This document shows positions 13,213 to 61,618 of a DNA stretch of 64,000 bases, in pieces. The stretch is from Pelagophyceae sp. CCMP2097 (lineage: Eukaryota > Sar > Pelagophyceae): positions 967,897 through 1,031,896 of the forward strand of contig MU657165.1 of the NCBI GenBank assembly GCA_026770575.1. Direction: 5' to 3'. The first letter of the stretch is position 1, and each line of letters starts with the position of its first letter. Position numbers and translations under genes: made by a program. The notes beneath the pieces were generated by a model that ran no database searches, had not been told where the DNA came from, and saw only the letters and a list, made by a program, of their open reading frames with translations.

Positions 13213-15641
13213 ATGGGCGTCGAGGGGCGGGGGCGGGGGCGGGACTCGCCGGCGATGCGTGCTGCGCGAGAGGTGGCCGCCGAACCTCGTGGGGCGCCGC
13301 GGCAGCACGGCCTCCGTCCCAGCAAGGCCTCCGTCCGCGGCGTCGCCACAGAGGTGACGCTGCGCGACTTCGTCCTCCTCTCCAAGCTCGGCGAGGGTGG
13401 CTTCGGCAAAGTCCTGTGAGGAATACCGCCACGGGGGGCGCCCGGCCCCGCCCACCCATCGAGAGCGGCCCTGGCGCTTTGCAGCGGCGAGTGCGTCTGC
13501 TATTAGCTTGGCGCGGAAGAAGGCGGGCGGCACGATGCACGCGATCAAGGTGCTGGACAAGGCGGCGTTGCTAAAGAAGGGCGACTCGACCGTTCGGCAC
13601 GTCCTCGAGGAGAACGCCATCTTAAAGACGCTGCACCACCCGTTCGTGCTGCAGCTGCACTACGCGTTCCACGACGAGTACCGACTCTACCTCGTCACGC
13701 AGTGGGTCGGGGGCGGCGATTTGTTCGAGCACCTGGAGCACCAGGGCCACTTTCCGGAGAAGTGGGTCGCGTTTTATACGGCCCAAATCGTCTGCGGCGC
13801 CCCGCGCCCGAATAAGGAAGACGCGGCGCGACGCATTGGGCATGCGGGGGTGGCGGCCGCCCCGGATCGCGTCTGTAGGCGCCCTGGCGTACGTGCACCT
13901 GCACGGCATCGTGTATCGCGACCTCAAACCCGAGAACGTGCTCCTCGGCCTCGACGGCTACTGCGTCCTGGCCGACTTCGGCCTCGCGAAGAAGATCCTC
14001 AGAGACGCGGAGCTGCCCCAAAAGCGGCGAGACGGAGAGACGGAGCTCAAACTGCTGCTGCAGCCGGACGGCGGCGACGAGGTGGTTTGCGGCGACGAGG
14101 TCGTGGGCCCGCTCTTGGACGCCGAGGCGGACGCGGTCATCGCTTCAAGCGCTCGATCGATGCTCGGCCGGGATTTGAGCGCGACGCGCGGGCAGCGGCC
14201 TTCGATGGACCGGTGCAACACGTTCTGCGGCACGGCGCTGTATTTAGCACCAGAGGTCATCTCGAAGATGCCCTACGGCCCGAGCGTCGACTTGTGGACG
14301 CTGGGCTGCCTCCTCGTCGAGATGCTGACGGGGACGCCGCCCTTCGTCGCCACGGACGTACAATCTTTGATGAAACAAATTACTTCCGCTGAGCCCGTAC
14401 TGGACTCTGGCGTAGACGTCTCCCCAGAGGCGCGCGCGCTCATCTTTCGCTTGCTGGACCGCGACCCGAAAAGACGCATCGGCTGCTCGCCGACGGCCAT
14501 GAGCGACGACGTGGCCGTCAAGGGCCACGCCTTCTTTTCGGGCGTCGACTTTGAGGCCCTCGTGCAGAAGAAGATTGACGCGCCGTACCTCCCGACGACC
14601 GAGGCCCTCCTCGGCCCGACGCGGTCGGGGCCCTTGCAGTCGGGTTTGCCCTCTCCCTTGGACGCGTTTGAAGATTTTGTGGCTCAGGATGAGGCAGACC
14701 GAATCAACGCCTCCGAGGCCGCCGAGCTCGGCGACCGCCAGCGCCGACGCCCCGACGCGCCGAGACGACGGGGCGCCACCGCAGAGAGCGCCACCGCTGA
14801 GAGGCGCGGCCTTTCGGCGGCACGGTGCGCCTCGCGACGCCCTCTGGTCCTAGGCGACTACGCGCGGCTGGGCCGCCTCGACTCGCTGCTGCGCGCGCTG
14901 GACGACGGCGCGGACGTGAACATGGCTCTGCCGGACGACCGCACTCTCCTGCAGATAGCCGCGGCCGAGGGCCACACGGCGTGCGTGCGTCTGCTCATCG
15001 ACCGGGGAGCGTCCGTGGAGCACACGGACCGCTTCGGTTTGAGCGCGTTGGAAGACGCGGACCGCGAGGGCCACGAGGCGGTGGCGCTGCTCCTGGTCGA
15101 GGCCGGAAGCAAGCTGCCCGCGACGGTGGCCTCGCAGCAGCTCCTCGACGCCGCCCTGCGAAACGACGTCGCCCAGGTCGCCCAAGTCCTCGGCCAGGGC
15201 GCAGACGTCAACACGTCCATGGCCCACGACCAGCGCACCGCCCTCCACGTGGCCGCCATGGAGGGCCACGTCTCGACGGCGCCAAAGCGGCGCCGCAGAG
15301 GGGCCCGGGCGAGAGGCGCCCTCGCGCATTTTCAAAAACGGCCCGCGCAGGTGGCGCTGCTGCTGGAGAAGGGCGCCGACGTGAACGCGCGGGACCGCTG
15401 GGGCCGCACGCCTCTGCAGGACGCCACGTTCGAGCGCCACGGAGCCGTCGAGCGCGTCCTCCGCAGCCACGGCGGGAAGTCCGGACCCAGCCCGAGCCAC
15501 TCGCTCCGCGCCGGACAGCCGAGCTTCAAGGCCTTCTCCAACCTCATACCGAGCAGCCCGTCGTTCAAGCCCAGAGGCCTGTCCACCTCCGGAGAAGGCT
15601 CAGGCGACTCCGTCCAGTCCGGCGCGTGCGCCGTCTCGTGA
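13213..15641 (+). CDS. AGC-type protein kinase with C-terminal ankyrin repeats
   Basis: Exons 13213-13415, 13507-13796, 13879-15269 and 15351-15641, about 724 residues. The kinase domain starts with [13 protein letters not shown] and continues with AIKVLDK, the [11 protein letters not shown] catalytic loop, ADFGLAKK and [10 protein letters not shown]; these are AGC-kinase hallmarks (PKA/PKG/S6K type). A long insertion sits between DFG and APE. Ankyrin repeats follow ([32 protein letters not shown]...[15 protein letters not shown]). The second intron has GC rather than GT at its donor and is flanked by the direct repeat GGCGCCC. The third intron (15270-15350) is 81 nt and in frame, so retention would only insert residues into an ankyrin repeat. 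The start could also be the ATG at 13255. Confidence 0.8.
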
Positions 15642-15729
15642 GACGAGGCGCGCGAGGTTCTTGCGTAAACATTGTACATTGTAAGGATCGCGCGCGCGTC
15701 GGCGTGGCGAGGCGCAGTCGTTGAGAGTC

Positions 15730-15790
15730 GGGGCGTGGTCGCGGGCGAGGGGTTATGGTTGGTCCCCTTCGTCCGGTCATGTCGCTCAAC
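15730..15790 (-). promoter_or_regulatory. Candidate SECIS element in the 3' UTR of the Sec gene
   Basis: About 80 bases downstream of the stop codon at 15863 the minus strand folds into a hairpin with the SECIS layout. An ATGA (15780-15777) is followed by a helix of about 12 bp (CCGGACGAAGGGG against CCCCTCGCCCGCG, one bulged A and one A-C mismatch). The apical loop is ACCAACCATAA, and the returning strand carries a GA (15740-15739) opposite the ATGA. An outer GTTGAG/CTCAAC pairing is also possible. This is the expected position and form for a eukaryotic selenocysteine insertion element. It was folded by eye, not by a program. Confidence 0.6.
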
Positions 15791-15862
15791 TCGCTTTCCA
15801 ACGATGCGCCTCGGCGGCGGTGCGCGGGCCCTCGGCTAGGTGCCGGAGGCCTTCAGCTAGTG

Positions 15863-17324
15863 TCAGGTGCCGCGGGCCGCCGGAGCGCTGGCGTCGAGCT
15901 TGCCGACGTAGAGCCCGTCGAACGCGTCGGCGTGGCGCTCCACGGCGCGCGCGAAGCGGCGGACGTCGCGCAGCGCCGGCGCCGCCGAGGGCGCCGCGGC
16001 GAGGATGCCGTCCGCCATCGAGACGATGCGGGCCTGGCGCCAGGGACGCTCGGGCGCCGCGCTCGCGAAAAGAAAGCGATGCACGAAGATGCACAACGAT
16101 GCACGAGGAAAGGCCGCGCGGAGGGGGCTTCCTCTCAAAGAAGTACGGCGGGGACTCTCTCGCGGCGCGGCGCGTTTTCTCCGGCCTCGGACGCCGGCGC
16201 GCGCGTGGTCGGCCGCGTGGGACGCGAGCGCCGAGTACGGCCCACCGTCACCTAGGTTTGCTCGCTTCAGATCCACCCTGGCAATGTGTGTGAGTGTATG
16301 ACCCGGCGCCCCCGCGCCTCTGGAGGCGACTCCTTCGAGGCCATCATGCTGCCCGGGCTTTCCGACGGGCACCCCCGGCGCAGTGTGGTGCCGCCGAAGC
16401 CGGCGGCGCGCATGACGTCCTCCTCGTGCGCCGCGTGTTCCTTAAATGCGTCTCGCGCCGACGCGAGCGCTGCGGCGCTCGGCGACGCCATGAGCGACCG
16501 CAGGCCGTCCGACAGCGCCTAGGGCCACGTTGTAAATCGTCGCACGCGCGCGGCGGCGGACCCGGGTTGCCGACGCGGGGAAGCGCCGCGTGCTCTGCGT
16601 CCATTTCCGCGTGGCCCACGGCGGCGAGCGGCTTCGGTTCGTAGGCGTCGTCGTCGTCCGGCTGCGCGGCGTCGCCGGTCTCCTCGAAGCCGTCGGCGGT
16701 GCTTAGGTTGTCGGGCTTGATTGCGAGGGCAGTGCCGTCATCGAGCGTAACACCAACGCGGCCTTGTGCGTCCACCCCTCTGGCGACGGCGCCGCGCTGG
16801 CCGTTGCGCTCGGCGGCGGCGACGAGGCCTTTGAGTTCGACGCGCGCGCCGACGGCGAAGCGCAGCTGGGGCTCCAGGATGTTTTCCAGGGCGCGGAAGG
16901 CGCGGTCGCCCCGGTCGTTAAACGACATTGTCTTCGTCGTCACAAACTTCCCCGCGCCGTCGATGACGACGAAGCCGCCGCAGCCGAGCTGCGCCGGGAA
17001 GCGCGGCATGTCGCCGGGCGCGACAAGGCAGTTGGCGCAGGTCTGGAGCATTCGCCGCGAAAAGTCCCGCGCGACCGCCGCCGACTCGACGCAGACGCAG
17101 AGGAAGAGCACCCGCCCGCCGTACGCGCGCTGCCAGACCTCCATCTGACGCGCGCACGGCGGGCACCCGCCTCAGCCGCCGTTGTAGAGGTGCAGCACCG
17201 CCGGGCGGCCCTGGCCGACGAGGGCGGAGAGGGGCGTCTTGTGCGGCGCTACCGAGCCCGAAGAGACCATCGTCACGTCGAACGACGGCACCCCGCGGCC
17301 CGCCCACGAGTCGTACGACGCCAT
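15863..17324 (-). CDS. Thioredoxin-fold selenoprotein candidate with KOW-like domain
   Basis: Exons 17324-16575, 16518-16373 and 16061-15863 make 1095 bases, 364 residues plus stop, if the TGA at 17174-17172 (codon 51) is read as selenocysteine. The frame runs straight through: LHLYNGG, TGA, GGCPPCARQM. The recoded residue thus sits three residues before a CPPC redox motif. Next comes a peroxiredoxin-like half (GCGGFVVIDGAGKFVTTKTM), then a KOW/SH3-like strand set (GRVGVTLDDGTALAIKPDNL), and a His/Glu-containing helix (FKEHAAHEEDVMRAAGF). A SECIS-like hairpin follows the stop. Introns are 56 and 311 nt. A thiol-redox role is likely; the exact family is not recognised. Without recoding, the product would be a 50-residue stub. 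Confidence 0.7.
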
Positions 17325-17866
17325 CGTGCGCGCCGAGCCGCTTAAAGTCGCGGTCTTCCGACTCGACGGACCGTGACAAAATGAACCAAGGAGTCGCTAA
17401 AAAGTGCGGTCTACTTTGTCAACTGGGGGCTTTTCAAAAATTTAATGGGGCCACTTTTGAAATCAACAACAAGTTCTTGAAGCAATTTGGGCCAGCCCCA
17501 CCCAGGGTGGATCTTAAGCAAGCAAGCAAGGGGTGAGGCATGAGGCATGAGGGTGTTAATTTATAGACCGGAAAGCGGGGTGAGATAAGTATCTAACCAC
17601 TTGATGCGCTTGATCCAAGAGGCAGCCGAGACTGCAATCAAGGAGCGGCTGTTGAAGGGGGTGTTCTTCTTATTCGCTCGGCGAGCCTTCGAGAGGCTTG
17701 GTGATGTTGGCAAGGATGGTTTCGATCGTCAGGGGCGCGGTCCGATGTCGAAGCGCGAAGACGATCCTAGTTGTATACTATAAACTGAAACCCTCGTGCC
17801 TTCGGCACGCCATGGGCGAGGTGCCCTATGCCACGCACTTGCTCCACGAGTCTGCGAGGGGCCGTT
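17325..17866. other. Intergenic spacer with dispersed repeat
   Basis: No gene is supported. At about 17494-17524 lies AGCCCCACCCAGGGTGGATC followed by TTAAGCAAGC repeats. Its inverse complement occurs at 61724-61753, and a shorter relative at 16262-16281. The flanks are AT-richer than neighbouring genes. Confidence 0.5.
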
Positions 17867-22600: not shown

Positions 22601-24410
22601 CGGCGGCGAGGACCAGGAACGTGGCCATGCCCATTAAAGGCGGCGTGGCGTTGATGACAGTGAAGATGCCCGTAAAACACTTCAAAAGCCTCCTCAAAAT
22701 GGCAAGATCGACGGCTCGTCTTTTCGCGATCGAGGCGGCGATGCCCTTTTCAAAGGCGAGCATCTTGATGATCCGGGACCCCTGCAGAGCCTCTGTGATG
22801 AGCTCCATTCGAGACGACCGAGCTTTGAGAAAGGCCTTAGTGTGTTTGGCCATTTCCTTGAAAATGCGGCCGTTCAGAGTGCCCAACACAAACATGACGC
22901 CCAAAGCGCCGACGGCGGCGATGCCGACGAGGTAGAACAGACCCGCGAGCGTCACCGCGAGCTGGAGCAGCGGCCCCCACGTCCAGTGGAAGTTGGCTAC
23001 CGCAGTGAGGACGTTTTGAATGTCGGCCGACATCAACGCGACGACCTCTCCGACGCGCCCGACGCCGTCGGCCGACATGTCCAGCCGCGAGCCCTTTGTG
23101 TAGAGCAGCATCATCAGAGCGCCGCGGCACCGCGTCGCCACGCGCCGCTGCAAATAGTTTTGCCTAAATGAAGGCGCGTCAAAGGGCGGCGATTCAAAGG
23201 GCAATCCAGAGCGCCAAAGAGAGGCCGTCAAAGGGCGCTTCAGACAAAGGGAGGCGCCGCGCGGGACTCACGCCGTGTCGAGGCAGGCCTGCGCCACGGG
23301 CCCGAAGAAGAGCGCCCCGCAGGCCGCCCAGCCAATCGCGTCCTGTGTGCCAAACTTCCGCAAGATGGCGTAGAGGCCCAAAGGCTGCGCGTAGGCCGAC
23401 GCGACGTAAAAGAGGCGGCAGACGCCAGACCCGATAAAGTGCGCGGGCGCGAGCCAGGCCAAGTGGCAAAAGAGGGCCACCGTGCGCGCGCGGTCCGACG
23501 TCGCCGCCCGCGCCCGCGTGGGCGCGCCCGTTTCCGAGTACGCCTCTCGACCGTACGTCGACGCCGCCGACTTGAAGACGGCCTCCTCCAGCGCGGGCCA
23601 CGAATGTTCGACGCGGTCGCCGCGCATCAACGGCGGCAGGTCCTTCTCGCCGAGCTTGTCGCCCGAGCCGTGCGCGCGCTTGCGCACGAAGAGGTCGTTT
23701 AGCCAATTGAAACTGACCACTTCGTAAAGGCCGCACGACAACTCTTCCGGCGAAGGCGATTCGTTGGCCGCGACCATCAGATGCTTACGCGCGGCGGCGC
23801 AGCTCAACAGCAGCGGCGCGTGCGCCAAGAGGGCCCAGAACGACGCGCGGCCGGCGAGTCTTTCCAAGTCGCCGGCGATAATCAGCGCCCAGGGCACGTC
23901 GCGCAGCGCCGCCGCCGCCGCTCCGCAGACGAAGACGAAGATGAGGGGCGAGTGTCTCCGCCGCTGCAGCGCCTTGTACTCTGCGCCGTCGGCCGTGGCC
24001 GCGATTGCCCACGCGCAACACCGCAGCAACTGCGATGCGGCGACGAGCGCCGCTTTCGCCACGGTTTCGTTTGCGTCGTCGGCGTGCTGGCCGCAGCGCA
24101 CGGCTGCGACAACTGCGCCCATGAGATAGTACATCGCCGCGACGTAGAAGAAAAGTTGGCGGAGGTACAAACCTGCGCGCGACTTGACCCAGCCCTCGCC
24201 GCATTCATCCCGCTCCACGTCGGGCACGAGGTTCTCTTCTGCGCCGTCGAATTCGACACGCGAATAAGCGGGCCGCTTGCGCTGCAAAAGGCGCCGCGCC
24301 GACGCGTGGGCGTAGGCCAGCCAGCCTCCGGCGAAGAAAACGAGCGCCGCGCCGATGAGGCACGACGCAGCCTCGCCGGAACGCGTCAGCGTCTGCGCCA
24401 GAGGCATCAT
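19652..24410 (-). CDS. ABCC-type (MRP) multidrug/conjugate transporter
   Basis: Exons 24410-23272, 23163-20922 and 20872-19652, about 1533 residues. An N-terminal hydrophobic region is followed by two TMD-NBD halves. NBD1 has Walker A GITGGGKSSLL, signature LSGGQQQRIQLARAL and Walker B VYVLDDPLSAVD. NBD2 has GRTGAGKSTLL, LSLGERQLLCLARAI and LVLMDEATANVD. The ABCC hallmark SPVFSCFNESLNGLATLRAF is created exactly across the second intron (49 nt), which supports the splice model. ABCC pumps export glutathione or other conjugates from the cytosol across the plasma or vacuolar membrane. The ATG at 24410 is the first in frame; the open frame continues upstream to about 24488 without ATG, so an extra 5' exon is possible. 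Canonical residues of both ATP sites appear intact. Confidence 0.9.
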
Positions 24411-56671: not shown

Positions 56672-58973
56672 TCATTGCGGCGCGGCCTGGAGCGAGTCGA
56701 GGAGCGCGGCCAGGTCATCCTCTTCCTCGTCCACGACGCGCGGCCGCCCTTGGCCCGCCTCGCCGTCGCCGTCGCCGTCGCCGTCGGCGTCTCGCGCGGC
56801 CCGGAAGAGCCGGGCCTCGAGGCCGAGGAGGTGGCACAGCGCGGCCGCGGCTTCCTCGAGCTGCGGCGCCATGTCGAGGCTCGGCGCCTGAAGCGGCCCT
56901 CAAGACAGCGCCGTCGAGGCATCGCTCAGAGGCGCACCTTGCGGCGGACGACGGCAGCGTTGTCGTAGAGCCGCGTGGACACGTCGTCGTGCAGCGGCCA
57001 CGAAAAGTCGACGTGCCTAGTCACGGTGCTCCGGGATAATGCGGTGTCCGCGTACGACGGCCGCGGTGGCGGGGCCTCTGCCGCTCGCGATGACCACCTT
57101 CGATTCGGTGGCAGTTGACGTTTTCCGCCGGCGTCGGCGCGGTTCGTCGCCAGAGGACGCGCGCGCCGAGCGTTTCCGACGCGGCCGCGAGGTCCTCGAC
57201 GGTTTTTCCAACGTTTTCGGCATCTGAAACGGTCGTCAAGTACGCGACCGCGACGTCTACGAGGCCGTCGGGCGTCGCCTTTGCCGACTCGTCGAGGACG
57301 AGGCAGCGCACGGCCGCGCCGCCCGCCGCCGGCTCGAAGACGACGCAGCAGCGCACGTCGCGAGGCCGCAGCACCACCGCCACGCGGCGCACGACTCGCC
57401 GCCGCACCGCCGCCGCGGCGACGTAGTCACCCGCGACGACGACGTGGTCCAGCCGCACGAACTGTGCCGTTTCGCCTTCGCCTGCGAAGATGGCGCCGAC
57501 GACGCGCTGCGTCCGTTCGTCCGCGACGAGCGCGGCGGGCGCGCGCCTTAGGGCGTAGACGCCGCCGTGGACCGCGCAGGCGCGGCAAAACGCCTGGGGC
57601 AGCTCCGCGGACCCGTAAAGCGGCGCGAGCAGGGCAGTTTCGCACCCTCGCATCCTACGCAAAGATCAAACACCAAGATCAAACACCGACGCGAACCGAG
57701 GGGAGGAGTTTCCGACGGAGGCGCACCTCCCGCCGAGCGCGTGGAGGTGGCGGTACAGGGCCTGGAGCCCCGCGGCGGCGGGCGTCGAATCGACTGGGCC
57801 GTCGACAAAGGCCATTGAGAATGCGACGACCTGCGACGTCCACTCGAATGCCGCGCAGCCGGACGACCACGGACCTTTGCGAGTCTGTCCGAGAGTTCGT
57901 ATTTGTCGAGGAGCTGCGAGAACGTGAGGCCCTCTTCGAGTTCGTGGCCCTCCGAGGCGCGCTTGTTCTGCGGCCGCCGCAGCGCGCGGCTCGCCGTGAG
58001 GCCGCGTTCGTTCAGCGTAGCGACGTCCGCCTCGCCCCAGTCCGCGGCGAACCTGCGTTCAGGCATCGAAAGGGCGTCGACGACGATATGACACGCACTG
58101 CAGCAGCCGCATGAGCCGCCGCTTCTCCGTCGGCACCAAGGCAGTCGACCTGCAGAAGGGCGCGTCGGCGAAATGCACATCGGGGCGATGGACGCACGCG
58201 AAGATTTCCTTTTTGGAGCAGGGTACGACGAGCGGCGCGGCGAACCCCTCCGCTGAACGCTCGACGAGCAAGAGTTTCTGGATCGAGTCGAACTCGAGGT
58301 AGTGCGCCACGCCCGCGGCGAGGATGCCGTCGACGCTGCCACCGGCCGCGTAAATGGCTCGGGCGTCCAGGTCAATGTTAAACCTCTTGGCGCGCTTGGA
58401 AACGTCGCGCTCCGCCGCGTCGGCGGCCGCGCGCGCCACGGCCGCCCCCGCGCGCTCGACGGCCGCCGCCGCCGCCGCCGCGCTCAACGACCGCACGTCG
58501 TCCGCTTCGCCGCTGTCGACCGGCGCCTCAGCGCACATGGCCTCCACCGCCGCGTTTTTGATTTCGTCGCAGTCGCGCAAGACGCCGACGCCGTGGACCT
58601 CCACCGCGTCGCCACCGACGCGCACCAAAACGAGGTCGTCGGCCGCCGCCAGCTCGAGCCTGGACGCCGCCAGCGCCAGCCACGCCTCATCGCGCGCCGC
58701 CGCCGCCGGCTGCGCCGCGCCCGGCCCGGCGCGCTGCTTCGCCAGCACGCCCTCAGCCCACTGCGCGCACCTACGCCGCTCCGCTCCGACCCTGGCGCGG
58801 GCCGCGGCACCGCACCCTTGGAGGGAGAAGCCGGCGGCGTCTGCACCATAAAAGTCGTTGTTGTCGACATGAAGCACGGATACCCCGCCCTGGGCCAGCG
58901 ACGCTGCCACCGCCGACTCGGCGAGGCCCGTGCCCACGACGAGCGCCCCATACGCGCCGTCGAAGTCGGCCAT
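56672..58973 (-). CDS. Rab escort protein (REP/CHM family)
   Basis: Exons 58973-58099, 58052-57875, 57830-57727, 57654-57120, 57075-56938 and 56887-56672, 681 residues. Introns are 44-72 nt and all phases fit. The N-terminal FAD-like fold GALVVGTGLAESAVAASLAQ and VLHVDNNDFYG, the RFNIDLDARAIYAAG block and VAHYLEF are the GDI/REP sequence-conserved regions. Splicing forms APLYGSAELPQAFCRACAVHG, the other hallmark. REPs present newly made Rab GTPases to geranylgeranyl transferase. The long Ala-rich insertion after block one (about residues 60-190) and the acidic Asp/Gly C-terminus favour REP over GDI. The final 44-nt intron (57076-57119) was placed to restore phase and is the least certain. Confidence 0.85.
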
Positions 58974-59340
58974 AGCTCCGGCGCCTTCGCCAAATCGGCC
59001 TTTTTAGCGAGATTTACTTTAAACGATCAAACAGTCGGCGCGGAGGGCATGCGAAGCGAGAGGTTTGGACTTCACCCGGTCCAGGCCGCAGCGCAGCGAA
59101 GGGCGTGGACCGGGGGTTTCCGGCGGCAGTCCCGACCGCTCCGAGTCACCGCGGCCACGAAGTGGCCGCGGTTGTCTGCGTGCGGTACCACGGGCGAGAG
59201 AACTCTCTCTCCCTCGTTTTCCCTCGTCGTCGCTCACGCACGGCGCGCGAGAACTTTACGTATACAATTATTGTAGGAATTCCTACTAGGAATTCCTAGG
59301 AATTCCTACTAGGAATTCCTAGGAATTCCTACTAGGCTAC
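58974..59340. repeat. Spacer ending in TAGGAATTCCTA palindrome cluster
   Basis: Promoter side of the Rab escort protein gene. From 59273 to 59333 it consists of five to six AGGAATTCCT units in alternating spacing (TACTAGGAATTCCTAGG). It is directly followed by the inverted-repeat element. Confidence 0.7.
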
Positions 59341-59344
59341 TGTG

Positions 59345-59938
59345 ACAAGGGGGGGTCAACATGAAACTGCCGCTCATTTTCTCACCTCCACAGGACGTTT
59401 GGTGAGACTTGGAGTGGCTTGACATGTCCGGGCCGACCCAAGGTGTCGGGCAGGAGGCGGAACTCTCCCTTTTTTCGCGTACCCTACGCGCAATCTCGAT
59501 TTTAGCGTCGCCAAAAGCTGGTTTGAGGTGGTTTTCCGTTGTCTTCGTTTGAGTTCCGCCTCCCTGCCGCTTCGCTGGGGCCGGCTGTAGGCCCTGGCCA
59601 CACCAGAGCCCGACATAGTGCCCTGTGGAGGTGAGAAATAAGGCCCAAAATTTAGGCTATGGGCTCCATTTTGTAAGTTATGGGCTTCATTTCACTTAAA
59701 ACGCCCATGCAAATCCGCAATTACAAGAAAATAGTGTCAAGTTTCACACCGTTTTCAAGTATTCTTGAAAACGGATTCACGCTCGGCGGACCGAGCCCGT
59801 AAACAAACTCTCGACGACGGGGATCTTTACTCCGCGAGGGGCGTCTTCAGGGACCAATAACTGCACATAAAACTTCTTGTGGACCGAGGAATTTATCGCT
59901 GACTGGAATCCCATTCAACATGTTGACCCCCCCTTGTA
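59345..59938. mobile_element. Nested non-autonomous inverted-repeat (MITE/foldback-like) element
   Basis: Outer ends ACAAGGGGGGTCAACATG (59345-59362) and the inverse complement CATGTTGACCCCCCCTTGT (59920-59938) differ by one G. Inside, TTTCTCACCTCCACAGG (about 59378-59394) pairs with CCTGTGGAGGTGAGAAA (59622-59638). A further inner pair is GCAGGAGGCGGAACTC (59450-59465) with GAGTTCCGCCTCCCTGC (59551-59567). The nested palindromes make a long potential hairpin. No transposase frame is present. Both flanks contain TAGGAATTCCTA units; a clear target-site duplication was not found. Confidence 0.6.
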
Positions 59939-60041
59939 GGAATTCCTAGTAACGAGGCGGGACCAGAGGAGGCCCGGCGCTCCTCGGAGGTGGCCTCGCT
60001 CCTCTCTGGCGTGGCCCGGGAGGCCGCGAGTTACACTGGAC

Positions 60042-61618
60042 TCAGCCCACTTTGCTGTCGTTATGCTCCGCGACGTCAAAGTTGTCGACGCTACACTCTC
60101 CGGCGGGGAGGTCGGGCTTGTCCTGCTGAGGCGGCGGCGCATCTTGGACGCGGGCGGCGCCGTCGGCTGCGGCGTCGGCGGACTCTGCGGAGTTTGCGGA
60201 CTCGCCGGGCCCGAGCTCGAGCGACGAGGCGCTGCCCGTGCTGCCGCGGCGCCAGAGCCGCACCGAGTTCGCGGCCCGGTGGCCGCGCAGCATCGCGGTG
60301 CGCGCGTGGCGCTTGCGGAGCTGCTTGAGGTGGCGCAGCGCCTCCTTCCTGTGCTCGCGGATGGCGACAGCGACGGTGGACGCCGCCGCGCCGACGACTC
60401 CAAACCCAACGATGGTGTACGCCCAGGCGGTGACGACGGAGACGTTCTTCGTCGACGGGGTAAAGTCGCCGAGGCCGAGCGTCGTCAGCGTCTGGAACGC
60501 AAAGTAGCAGGAATTCCAGTACGTGAACGAGTCCTGGTCCGCCAACTTTTGCTCAGTGTACTGGAACAAAGCACCACCGGCGAGCAAGTAGCCTGCGCCG
60601 ATGGCGAACATGACCGAGTTGAGGTGCCGCCGCACGGGGCCGACGAACTTGAGCTGGTGTACTGCCCTCGACCCGATTGCGCTGTAGCACGGCACGGCGA
60701 CGGCGCCCCCGACGAGGAGGACCACGACGACGAGGATCTTGCTCGAGTCCTTCTGCGGCGCAAAGTCCCCGAAGCCAATCGTCGTAAAGACGGTGAGCGC
60801 AAAGTAGAAGCACCCGATGAAGCGCCATTAACATGCGTACGTCTCCCGGCCCCCGTTGCAAATGGCCCGCAGCGCCGACCGCACTTCTTCCGAAGAGACG
60901 CCCGGCCGCGGCAACCCGTCCAAGAGCACCTCGTCGATTCTATTCTTGCAGCGGCCGCACTTCCACGACGTGGCGTAGGACCGTTTAAAGGTGTCGAAGA
61001 CAAAGTCGGCGTCATGGGCGCTCATGACGTAAGGATTGTCGTCCGTGCCGTCGATAATCGCCGGGAAGCGCTCGAAATAGATCAGCCGGACTTTTCGGCC
61101 GTCCTTGAGCTCGCGCCGCAGCTCGGATGCGCGGAAGGCAAAGGCCGCTGCCGTGTTGAGGGCCAGCACGTAAAAGAGCAGCCGCACGATTCTCGCCAGC
61201 GTCGGCGGCGGCGGGTCCGCAGACTCGTCGCCGCCGCAGCTGTCGACCTAATACCGACGCCAGTCGAAGCCTTGAAAGGACCCGCAAACGGCCCGGCGCC
61301 TCGAAGAGCCGAGACGCGGCGGTATACGAGCTCGTCGACGAGCACAGTGAGCCGCCGCGCGTGGTCCTCCGCAGACTCGCCCGGCCGCCGCGCCTTGCGC
61401 TGGCTCGTGCACCGGACCCACGCCGCGTCCACGCAGCCCCCGTCTGCGGCCCCCGGGCTCGCCGGCGCGCCGGACGCAGCGCCGAGGGGCGAGTGCGTTC
61501 CGACGACGGGGCTCGCCGCGACGAGGCGGGATTCGGACGCCCCGCGGCGGGATTCGGGCGCCCCGCGGCGGTCGTCGAGGGCGGCATTCCAGCTCGAGAC
61601 CGGCGCGGAACGCAGCAT
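60042..61618 (-). pseudogene. Two-pore (K2P/TPK-like) potassium channel interrupted by an in-frame TAA
   Basis: Exons 61618-61316 and 61247-60042 (68-nt intron, donor GTCTCG) would give about 502 residues, but codon 240 is TAA (60830-60828). The frame is otherwise continuous: an N-terminal cytosolic part, first helix IVRLLFYVLALNTAAAFAF, a loop with a CxxC (SWKCGRCKNR), then TAA. Just after it comes pore one, CFYFALTVFTTIGFGDFAP, then helices and pore two, AFQTLTTLGLGDFTPS. The two selectivity filters (TIGFGD and TLGLGD) show a tandem-pore channel. No AG acceptor lies between the TAA and the pore, so an intron cannot remove the stop. It is either a recent pseudogene, a base error or a readthrough site. 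Confidence 0.7.

Follow-up and report, generated by a model that had tools for sequence, protein, structure and literature searches.

Whether an in-frame TGA ends a reading frame or encodes selenocysteine (Sec) is the question raised by a locus on the minus strand of the window, which here means the whole 64,000-nt stretch of contig MU657165.1 from Pelagophyceae sp. CCMP2097 that was analysed. A reading made from the sequence alone had proposed that this locus codes for an undescribed selenoprotein, with a TGA ahead of a CxxC thioredoxin-like motif and with a SECIS-like hairpin behind the stop codon. On the evidence given below, this is very probably a real selenoprotein gene that has been mis-annotated. 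It is, however, of a kind already in print, and we infer its function from its sequence.

The gene (15863..17324, minus strand, from ATG to stop) consists of four exons (17324-16587, 16518-16392, 16251-16205 and 16033-15863), which join into a frame of 360 residues plus the stop. Direct translation of this minus-strand frame from the ATG at 17324 gives MASYDSWAGRGVPSFDVTMVSS...AVLHLYNGG, crosses one TGA and continues as GGCPPCARQMEVWQRAYGG... (in short, ...HLYNGG*GGCPPCARQM...GCGGFVVIDG...). The frame had been described as staying open beyond the TGA, with GGCPPCARQM and GCGGFVVIDG as family features, and this is what we find. The TGA (17174-17172, minus strand) is residue 51 and is read here as a putative Sec codon, based on direct reading and on a frame break conserved in homologues. 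The stop codon (15865-15863, minus strand), at the position named earlier, lies in the frame of exon 4. A correction is required. The gene is not a single exon but has three introns, located between the thioredoxin/KOW part and the stop. Their borders were set by joining the exons to the public protein model: intron 1 (16519..16586, 68 nt), intron 2 (16252..16391, 140 nt) and intron 3 (16034..16204, 171 nt), all on the minus strand and all of the type GC..AG. Among the alternative placements that yield the identical product, none provides GT..AG, and GC..AG fits all three introns. Nothing directly relevant to GC-AG introns in pelagophytes was found in the literature searched.

In public annotation the gene is represented by P0001, a hypothetical protein of 300 aa (M885DRAFT_504795) from Pelagophyceae sp. 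CCMP2097; the species agrees with the pelagophyte origin suggested in the sequence-only reading. P0001 is identical, letter for letter, to residues 61-360 of the joined exons. It starts at Met 61, ten codons past the TGA. In exon 1, the third-position G+C is 0.96 before the TGA and 0.88 after it, and it is 0.50 in the 375 nt upstream. With such high values on either side of it, the TGA does not interrupt the coding character of the exon. P0001 is one single member sequence that is listed from NCBI, JGI, nr and the MMETSP transcriptomes. Given the MMETSP listing, the transcript product seems to be closed upstream too, with the same start.

Three domains are distinguished in the 360-residue protein. 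The first, at residues ~1-155 (16860..17324, minus strand), is thioredoxin/TlpA/AhpC-like. It is matched weakly by AhpC-TSA (PF00578; E 0.10-0.18, 12.2-13 bits, below the cut-off of 26), and because the cut-off is not reached we call the N-terminal domain only AhpC/TlpA-like. In the predicted model, this part has the strand-helix order of thioredoxins, and a long helix begins at CPPC. The mean pLDDT is 51.7 for the whole model, and the thioredoxin part is of low confidence. The Foldseek matches of the N-terminal part include thioredoxin (1ep8) and a thiol:disulfide interchange protein (3or5), alongside numerous Tudor and KOW structures. The thioredoxin-like fold that had been suggested for this region is thus borne out by strand-helix order, the weak PF00578 match and Foldseek. 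Residue 51 is three positions ahead of the first Cys of CPPC, so that residues 51-57 (17154..17174, minus strand) read directly as U-G-G-C-P-P-C, a U-x-x-C-x-x-C motif (UxxCxxC). A further Cys, in a QLGC segment, is invariant in the homologue alignment.

The second domain, at residues 155-205 (16710..16862, minus strand), is a small KOW/SH3-like barrel. DUF4314 (PF14192) matches it with E 1.6e-4 and 21.9 bits, below the cut-off of 27. No part of the model is predicted better than this barrel, which Foldseek matches to KOW and Tudor barrels. The two results agree with the KOW-like domain of the sequence-only reading. At another locus of this genome (L002, G000:C23:313505-313687), a KOW/SH3-like segment is 43% identical to residues 157-222; the gene there looks otherwise unrelated.

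The third domain (15880..16616, minus strand) is a hemerythrin domain that is split by the three introns. PF01814 matches residues 178-287 of P0001 with E 4.9e-9 and 37.2 bits, above the cut-off of 25.3. Among six members scanned, the cut-off is passed by P0001, P0005 and P0011, and P0002, P0004 and P0008 are just below it. The seven di-iron ligands (H185, H214, E218, H240, H244, H278 and D283 in P0001) are invariant in all 12 rows of the alignment. They are arranged as H; HxxxE; HxxxH; HxxxxD, which we take to be the ligand order of hemerythrin di-iron sites. The family profile matches myohemerythrin 1a7d (E 1.5e-4). With the P0001 model, the first-ranked Foldseek match is myohemerythrin 1a7e (target TM 0.79, E 2.3e-3; none of the matches reaches E 0.001). 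A PF01814 search of the CCMP2097 genome gave no match, probably because introns split the domain, and for the same reason paralogues may exist despite the empty search. The "His/Glu helix" noted earlier is part of this hemerythrin domain.

Besides P0001 itself, a search for homologues retrieved 12 proteins, 13 in all. Eight of these (P0002-P0007, P0010 and P0011) begin at a Met that is aligned with the first residue of P0001. P0008 starts two columns after that residue, P0012 starts inside the domain, and P0009 has 23 upstream residues that are unlike those of the window. P0013 (Aureococcus model JL720_4482) is fused to TPR-like sequence and is devoid of the active site; the TGA has probably misled the annotation of this public model. 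Both P0009 and P0013 are taken as neutral evidence or annotation artefacts. None of the 12 carries a homologous N-terminus that is continuous, in a single frame, with the remainder of the protein. When the thioredoxin part, carrying Cys at the site, served as the query, P0011 and P0014 were retrieved, and the N-terminal piece alone retrieved only P0014. This is a 115-aa environmental protein with 60% identity to the window's sequence over 48 residues, and its last residues (...VIHLYNGG) end at the residue just before the TGA. As the end of P0014 and the starts of the homologues show, sequences independent of each other end or begin at this position. That the frame breaks here is strongly supported by these ends and starts of protein models, in which the codon itself is not visible; they suggest a conserved stop, with the upstream half represented by P0014 only. 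Homologues lacking both Cys and Sec at this position, which had been named as evidence against Sec, did not turn up. Likewise, a Cys form was found neither in the homologue search nor in the thioredoxin-part search with Cys at the site. Viral contigs yielded no relative.

If the TGA were a true stop, the locus would code for a 50-residue peptide or, upon restart at Met 61, for a protein of only 300 aa. The public annotation is consistent with this, as P0001 begins at that Met, and eight of the 12 other homologue models likewise begin there. However, the 50 residues ahead of the TGA are conserved, as seen in the similarity to P0014, and they supply the first thioredoxin strands up to the active site. 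The high third-position G+C ahead of the TGA, the loss of the CPPC site upon a start at Met 61 and a SECIS-like element in the right place (see below) also argue against a true stop, which we consider very unlikely.

The use of Sec elsewhere in the genome was analysed in the assembly of Pelagophyceae sp. CCMP2097 (66 Mb, 638 contigs). A TGA is found inside four of six matches to the GPx profile, in one of three Rdx matches and in both Sep15/SelM matches. MsrA has 13 matches, two with TGA plus one with TAG. None of the three AhpC-TSA_2 matches contains a TGA, the TGAs of L022 and L023 being located just outside the matches. When the loci were read individually, 11 genes were found to have a TGA at the redox site of their family. 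These are four GPx genes (L003, L004, L007 and L008), one SelT-like gene (L009, CTS*), two MsrA genes (L013 and L014, G*FW), two SelU/Prx-like genes (L022 and L023) and two SelM/Sep15-like genes (L025 and L026). Four MsrA loci have Cys (GCFW; L012, L018, L019 and L021). One of them, an MsrA fragment on C146 (L021), is counted as a Cys locus because its active site has Cys and its TGA lies elsewhere. SepSecS is encoded in the genome (E 7e-45). A search for tRNA-Sec, in which 53 of 5768 candidates were scored, found none.

The SECIS-like element of the candidate gene starts 83 nt past the stop. Its core, obtained by our own scan and by folding (15739..15780, minus strand), consists of ATGA (15780-15777), a 36-nt hairpin and GA (15740-15739). 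The helix has 10 standard pairs in blocks of 3+3+4, interrupted by an A.C mismatch and a bulged A, and the apical loop has 11 nt (ACCAACCATAA). The sequence-only reading had ATGA, the unpaired loop and GA in SECIS order correct; its 12-bp helix is, in fact, this interrupted helix. The core folds with -13.4 kcal/mol (z -2.25; 4 of 200 shuffles were as good). With an outer stem (91 nt, 15805-15715), the value is -29.3 kcal/mol (z -2.84; 3 of 200 shuffles). In the latter fold, AUGA faces GA in an internal loop, which resembles the SECIS quartet, the folding being one that covers standard pairs only.

The first scans for SECIS elements proved overly strict or overly permissive and were dropped. 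An intermediate rule, later superseded, recovered four of eight of the genome's own selenoprotein loci and matched two places in the window (the second at 24355, plus strand) and five in 85 kb of control loci. The final rule calls for ATGAC, a hairpin of 30-44 nt that has a single unpaired base at either end, forms no fewer than 9 pairs and folds with -11 kcal/mol or lower, and [CT]GA. It was drawn from six elements of this genome and tuned with the candidate in view, so that the rates reported here are not blind p-values; the blind part is provided by L014 and L023. Upon scanning both strands of the window (128 kb), the final rule matches once, at 15780 on the minus strand, in line with the claim of a SECIS-like element 3' of the stop. 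A first-order Markov simulation of the window gave 6 matches per 1.28 Mb.

At the genome's own selenoprotein loci, seven of eight have one element each on the sense strand, and none was found antisense. The six elements downstream of selenoprotein genes all have ATGACG and a pyrimidine before GA. In their alignment, ATGA and GA had been required by the scan, and the remaining shared letters had not. The six are divergent and, in our judgement, align too poorly for a covariance model. In 16 control loci (105,258 nt, both strands), the final rule had four matches, namely two GPx elements again, and one each in L014 and L023. One control locus (L005) overlaps L007 and L008 and was dropped, and L014, L022 and L023 were moved from the controls to the TGA genes after the scan. 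Among the 12 remaining control loci there is no match. For L014 (MsrA) and L023 (SelU-like), the element had been found by the scan before their TGA was known. After a recount, an element is present in 9 of the 11 genes with a TGA at the redox site and in none of the four Cys MsrA loci. The elements in the nine genes start 71-465 nt past the end of the matched domain piece. L013 and L022 are missed by the rule despite a TGA at the redox site; they may have a different SECIS form or an intron. An Rfam search for SECIS elements found none at 15300-17400. As it also gave no match at seven other selenoprotein loci of this genome, the miss at the candidate is uninformative.

It is conceivable that the UGA is read as another residue, by programmed read-through or by a Cys- or Trp-inserting tRNA, so that the hairpin is not a SECIS element. 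The A.C mismatch and the bulge in the hairpin, its lack of recognition by Rfam and the tRNA-Sec search that found none would fit. Against this, the element obeys the same rule as the GPx, SelT-like, Sep15/SelM, SelU-like and MsrA elements of this genome, and the TGA adjoins redox cysteines. A position beside redox cysteines is the usual place of Sec. Insertion of another residue is therefore judged highly improbable.

That the TGA is due to a sequencing error, is spliced out or is a Cys codon decayed in a pseudogene is scarcely credible. In favour are the single base that separates TGA from the Cys codon TGC and the searches, which found no homologue with an intact N-terminus. Against it, other proteins show the same break, the identical product is listed from the MMETSP transcriptomes (which argues against splicing-out and assembly error), and the seven hemerythrin ligands and the remaining frame are intact.

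Decoding of the UGA at codon 51 as Sec, as originally claimed, is supported by the conserved break, the MMETSP listing, the SECIS-like element, the TGA at the redox site of other genes of this genome together with SepSecS, the domains and the third-position G+C. We thus consider it highly likely that this is a genuine selenoprotein gene. For its components (the reading frame, the exons, the hemerythrin domain, the frame break and the SECIS-like element), the analysis of the nucleotide and protein sequences provides strong support.

The gene is not the first of its kind. Algal TlpA (thioredoxin-like) selenoproteins have been described to contain a hemerythrin metal-binding domain, suggesting oxygen binding, and 80% of the algal TlpA members have Sec (Jiang et al. 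2020, PMC7539508). According to the same paper, Aureococcus has 82 selenoprotein genes. Thioredoxin-domain selenoproteins are among the 59 predicted in a virus study of Aureococcus (PMC5917014). The label "undescribed" can thus not be retained, and the combination of domains, which had been considered unfamiliar, is in its essentials that reported for algal TlpA in 2020 (PMC7539508). Like that family, the gene codes for a thioredoxin-like algal selenoprotein with a hemerythrin domain. All three traits (thioredoxin-like part, hemerythrin and Sec) are present here, the thioredoxin part by weak matches. In the passages on TlpA in that paper, neither this species nor a UxxCxxC motif nor a middle domain of the KOW type is named. 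The gene looks like a further member of the algal TlpA kind, matched to it by architecture. No further publication plainly on this protein was found in the full-text literature searched, outside of which most subscription journals lie.

The individual domains can be compared with characterised proteins. Myohemerythrin and DcrH-type hemerythrin (PDB 1a7d, 2avk) share the four-helix fold and the seven di-iron ligands with the protein analysed here. In contrast to these, its hemerythrin domain is the C-terminal part of a redox selenoprotein. Similarity to AhpC/TSA and TlpA/ResA proteins is indicated by the weak PF00578 match and by Foldseek (1ep8 and 3or5), and CPPC followed by a helix presumably resembles the arrangement in TlpA proteins. 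Unlike those, the protein has its predicted Sec three residues before CPPC and the invariant Cys in the QLGC segment. Another precedent is GrdB, which we take to be an enzyme unrelated to this protein. In prokaryotes, UxxCxxC is present in GrdB, which makes it a precedent for the motif, and there is a UGC-containing TlpA disulfide reductase family (PMC13188914). The latter is similar in having Sec beside cysteines in a TlpA-type protein, but its motif has the spacing UGC, and hemerythrin is absent from the text of that paper.

For the function, the following mechanism is proposed. The SECIS element in the 3' untranslated region would direct the decoding of the UGA at codon 51 as Sec. This would yield a redox protein in which a TlpA/AhpC-like thioredoxin fold with the active motif U-G-G-C-P-P-C is joined to a KOW/SH3-like barrel and to a hemerythrin domain that has its di-iron ligands complete. 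In other thioredoxin-fold selenoproteins, Sec attacks and Cys resolves. Here, Sec51 may be the attacking selenol on an oxidised substrate, with C54 and C57 resolving, so that a thiol-selenol relay would act as reductase or peroxidase. Hemerythrin di-iron sites bind O2, peroxide or NO. The site in this protein may do so as well, and could couple the redox chemistry to the oxygen level or deliver the oxidant. The presence of two such sites in one chain suggests an oxidant-handling enzyme or an oxygen-responsive redox regulator, and in a marine pelagophyte such a protein would most likely serve oxidant defence or oxygen-responsive redox control. The proposed chemistry taken by itself (a Sec/Cys/Cys relay and di-iron coupling) is tentative, with its chances somewhat short of even. 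We speculate, as an unlikely extension, that this is a Sec-obligate pelagophyte family in which a UxxCxxC relay is wired to a di-iron domain that binds oxygen or peroxide, resulting in an oxygen-gated selenoenzyme or sensor. To our knowledge, direct coupling of selenium and di-iron in one chain has no characterised counterpart.

The active site of these proteins is missing from databases because the models of this gene and of most relatives are cut in public annotation. Once the model is corrected, the family has a defined, predicted Sec motif together with a di-iron partner domain, and these searches found no Cys form of it. The corrected family would be suited for tests of why selenium is needed by pelagophytes. 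For a catalogue of the selenoproteins encoded in the CCMP2097 genome, the SECIS rule may be of use.

Two minor observations were made along the way. L007 and L008 (G000:C111, ~58327-60622) are tandem GPx genes, each with an in-frame TGA, and have identical SECIS-like cores. In the window, a long plus-strand frame (13626-15641), kinase-like and ankyrin-like by eye, converges with the selenoprotein gene and ends ~100 nt from the SECIS-like element.
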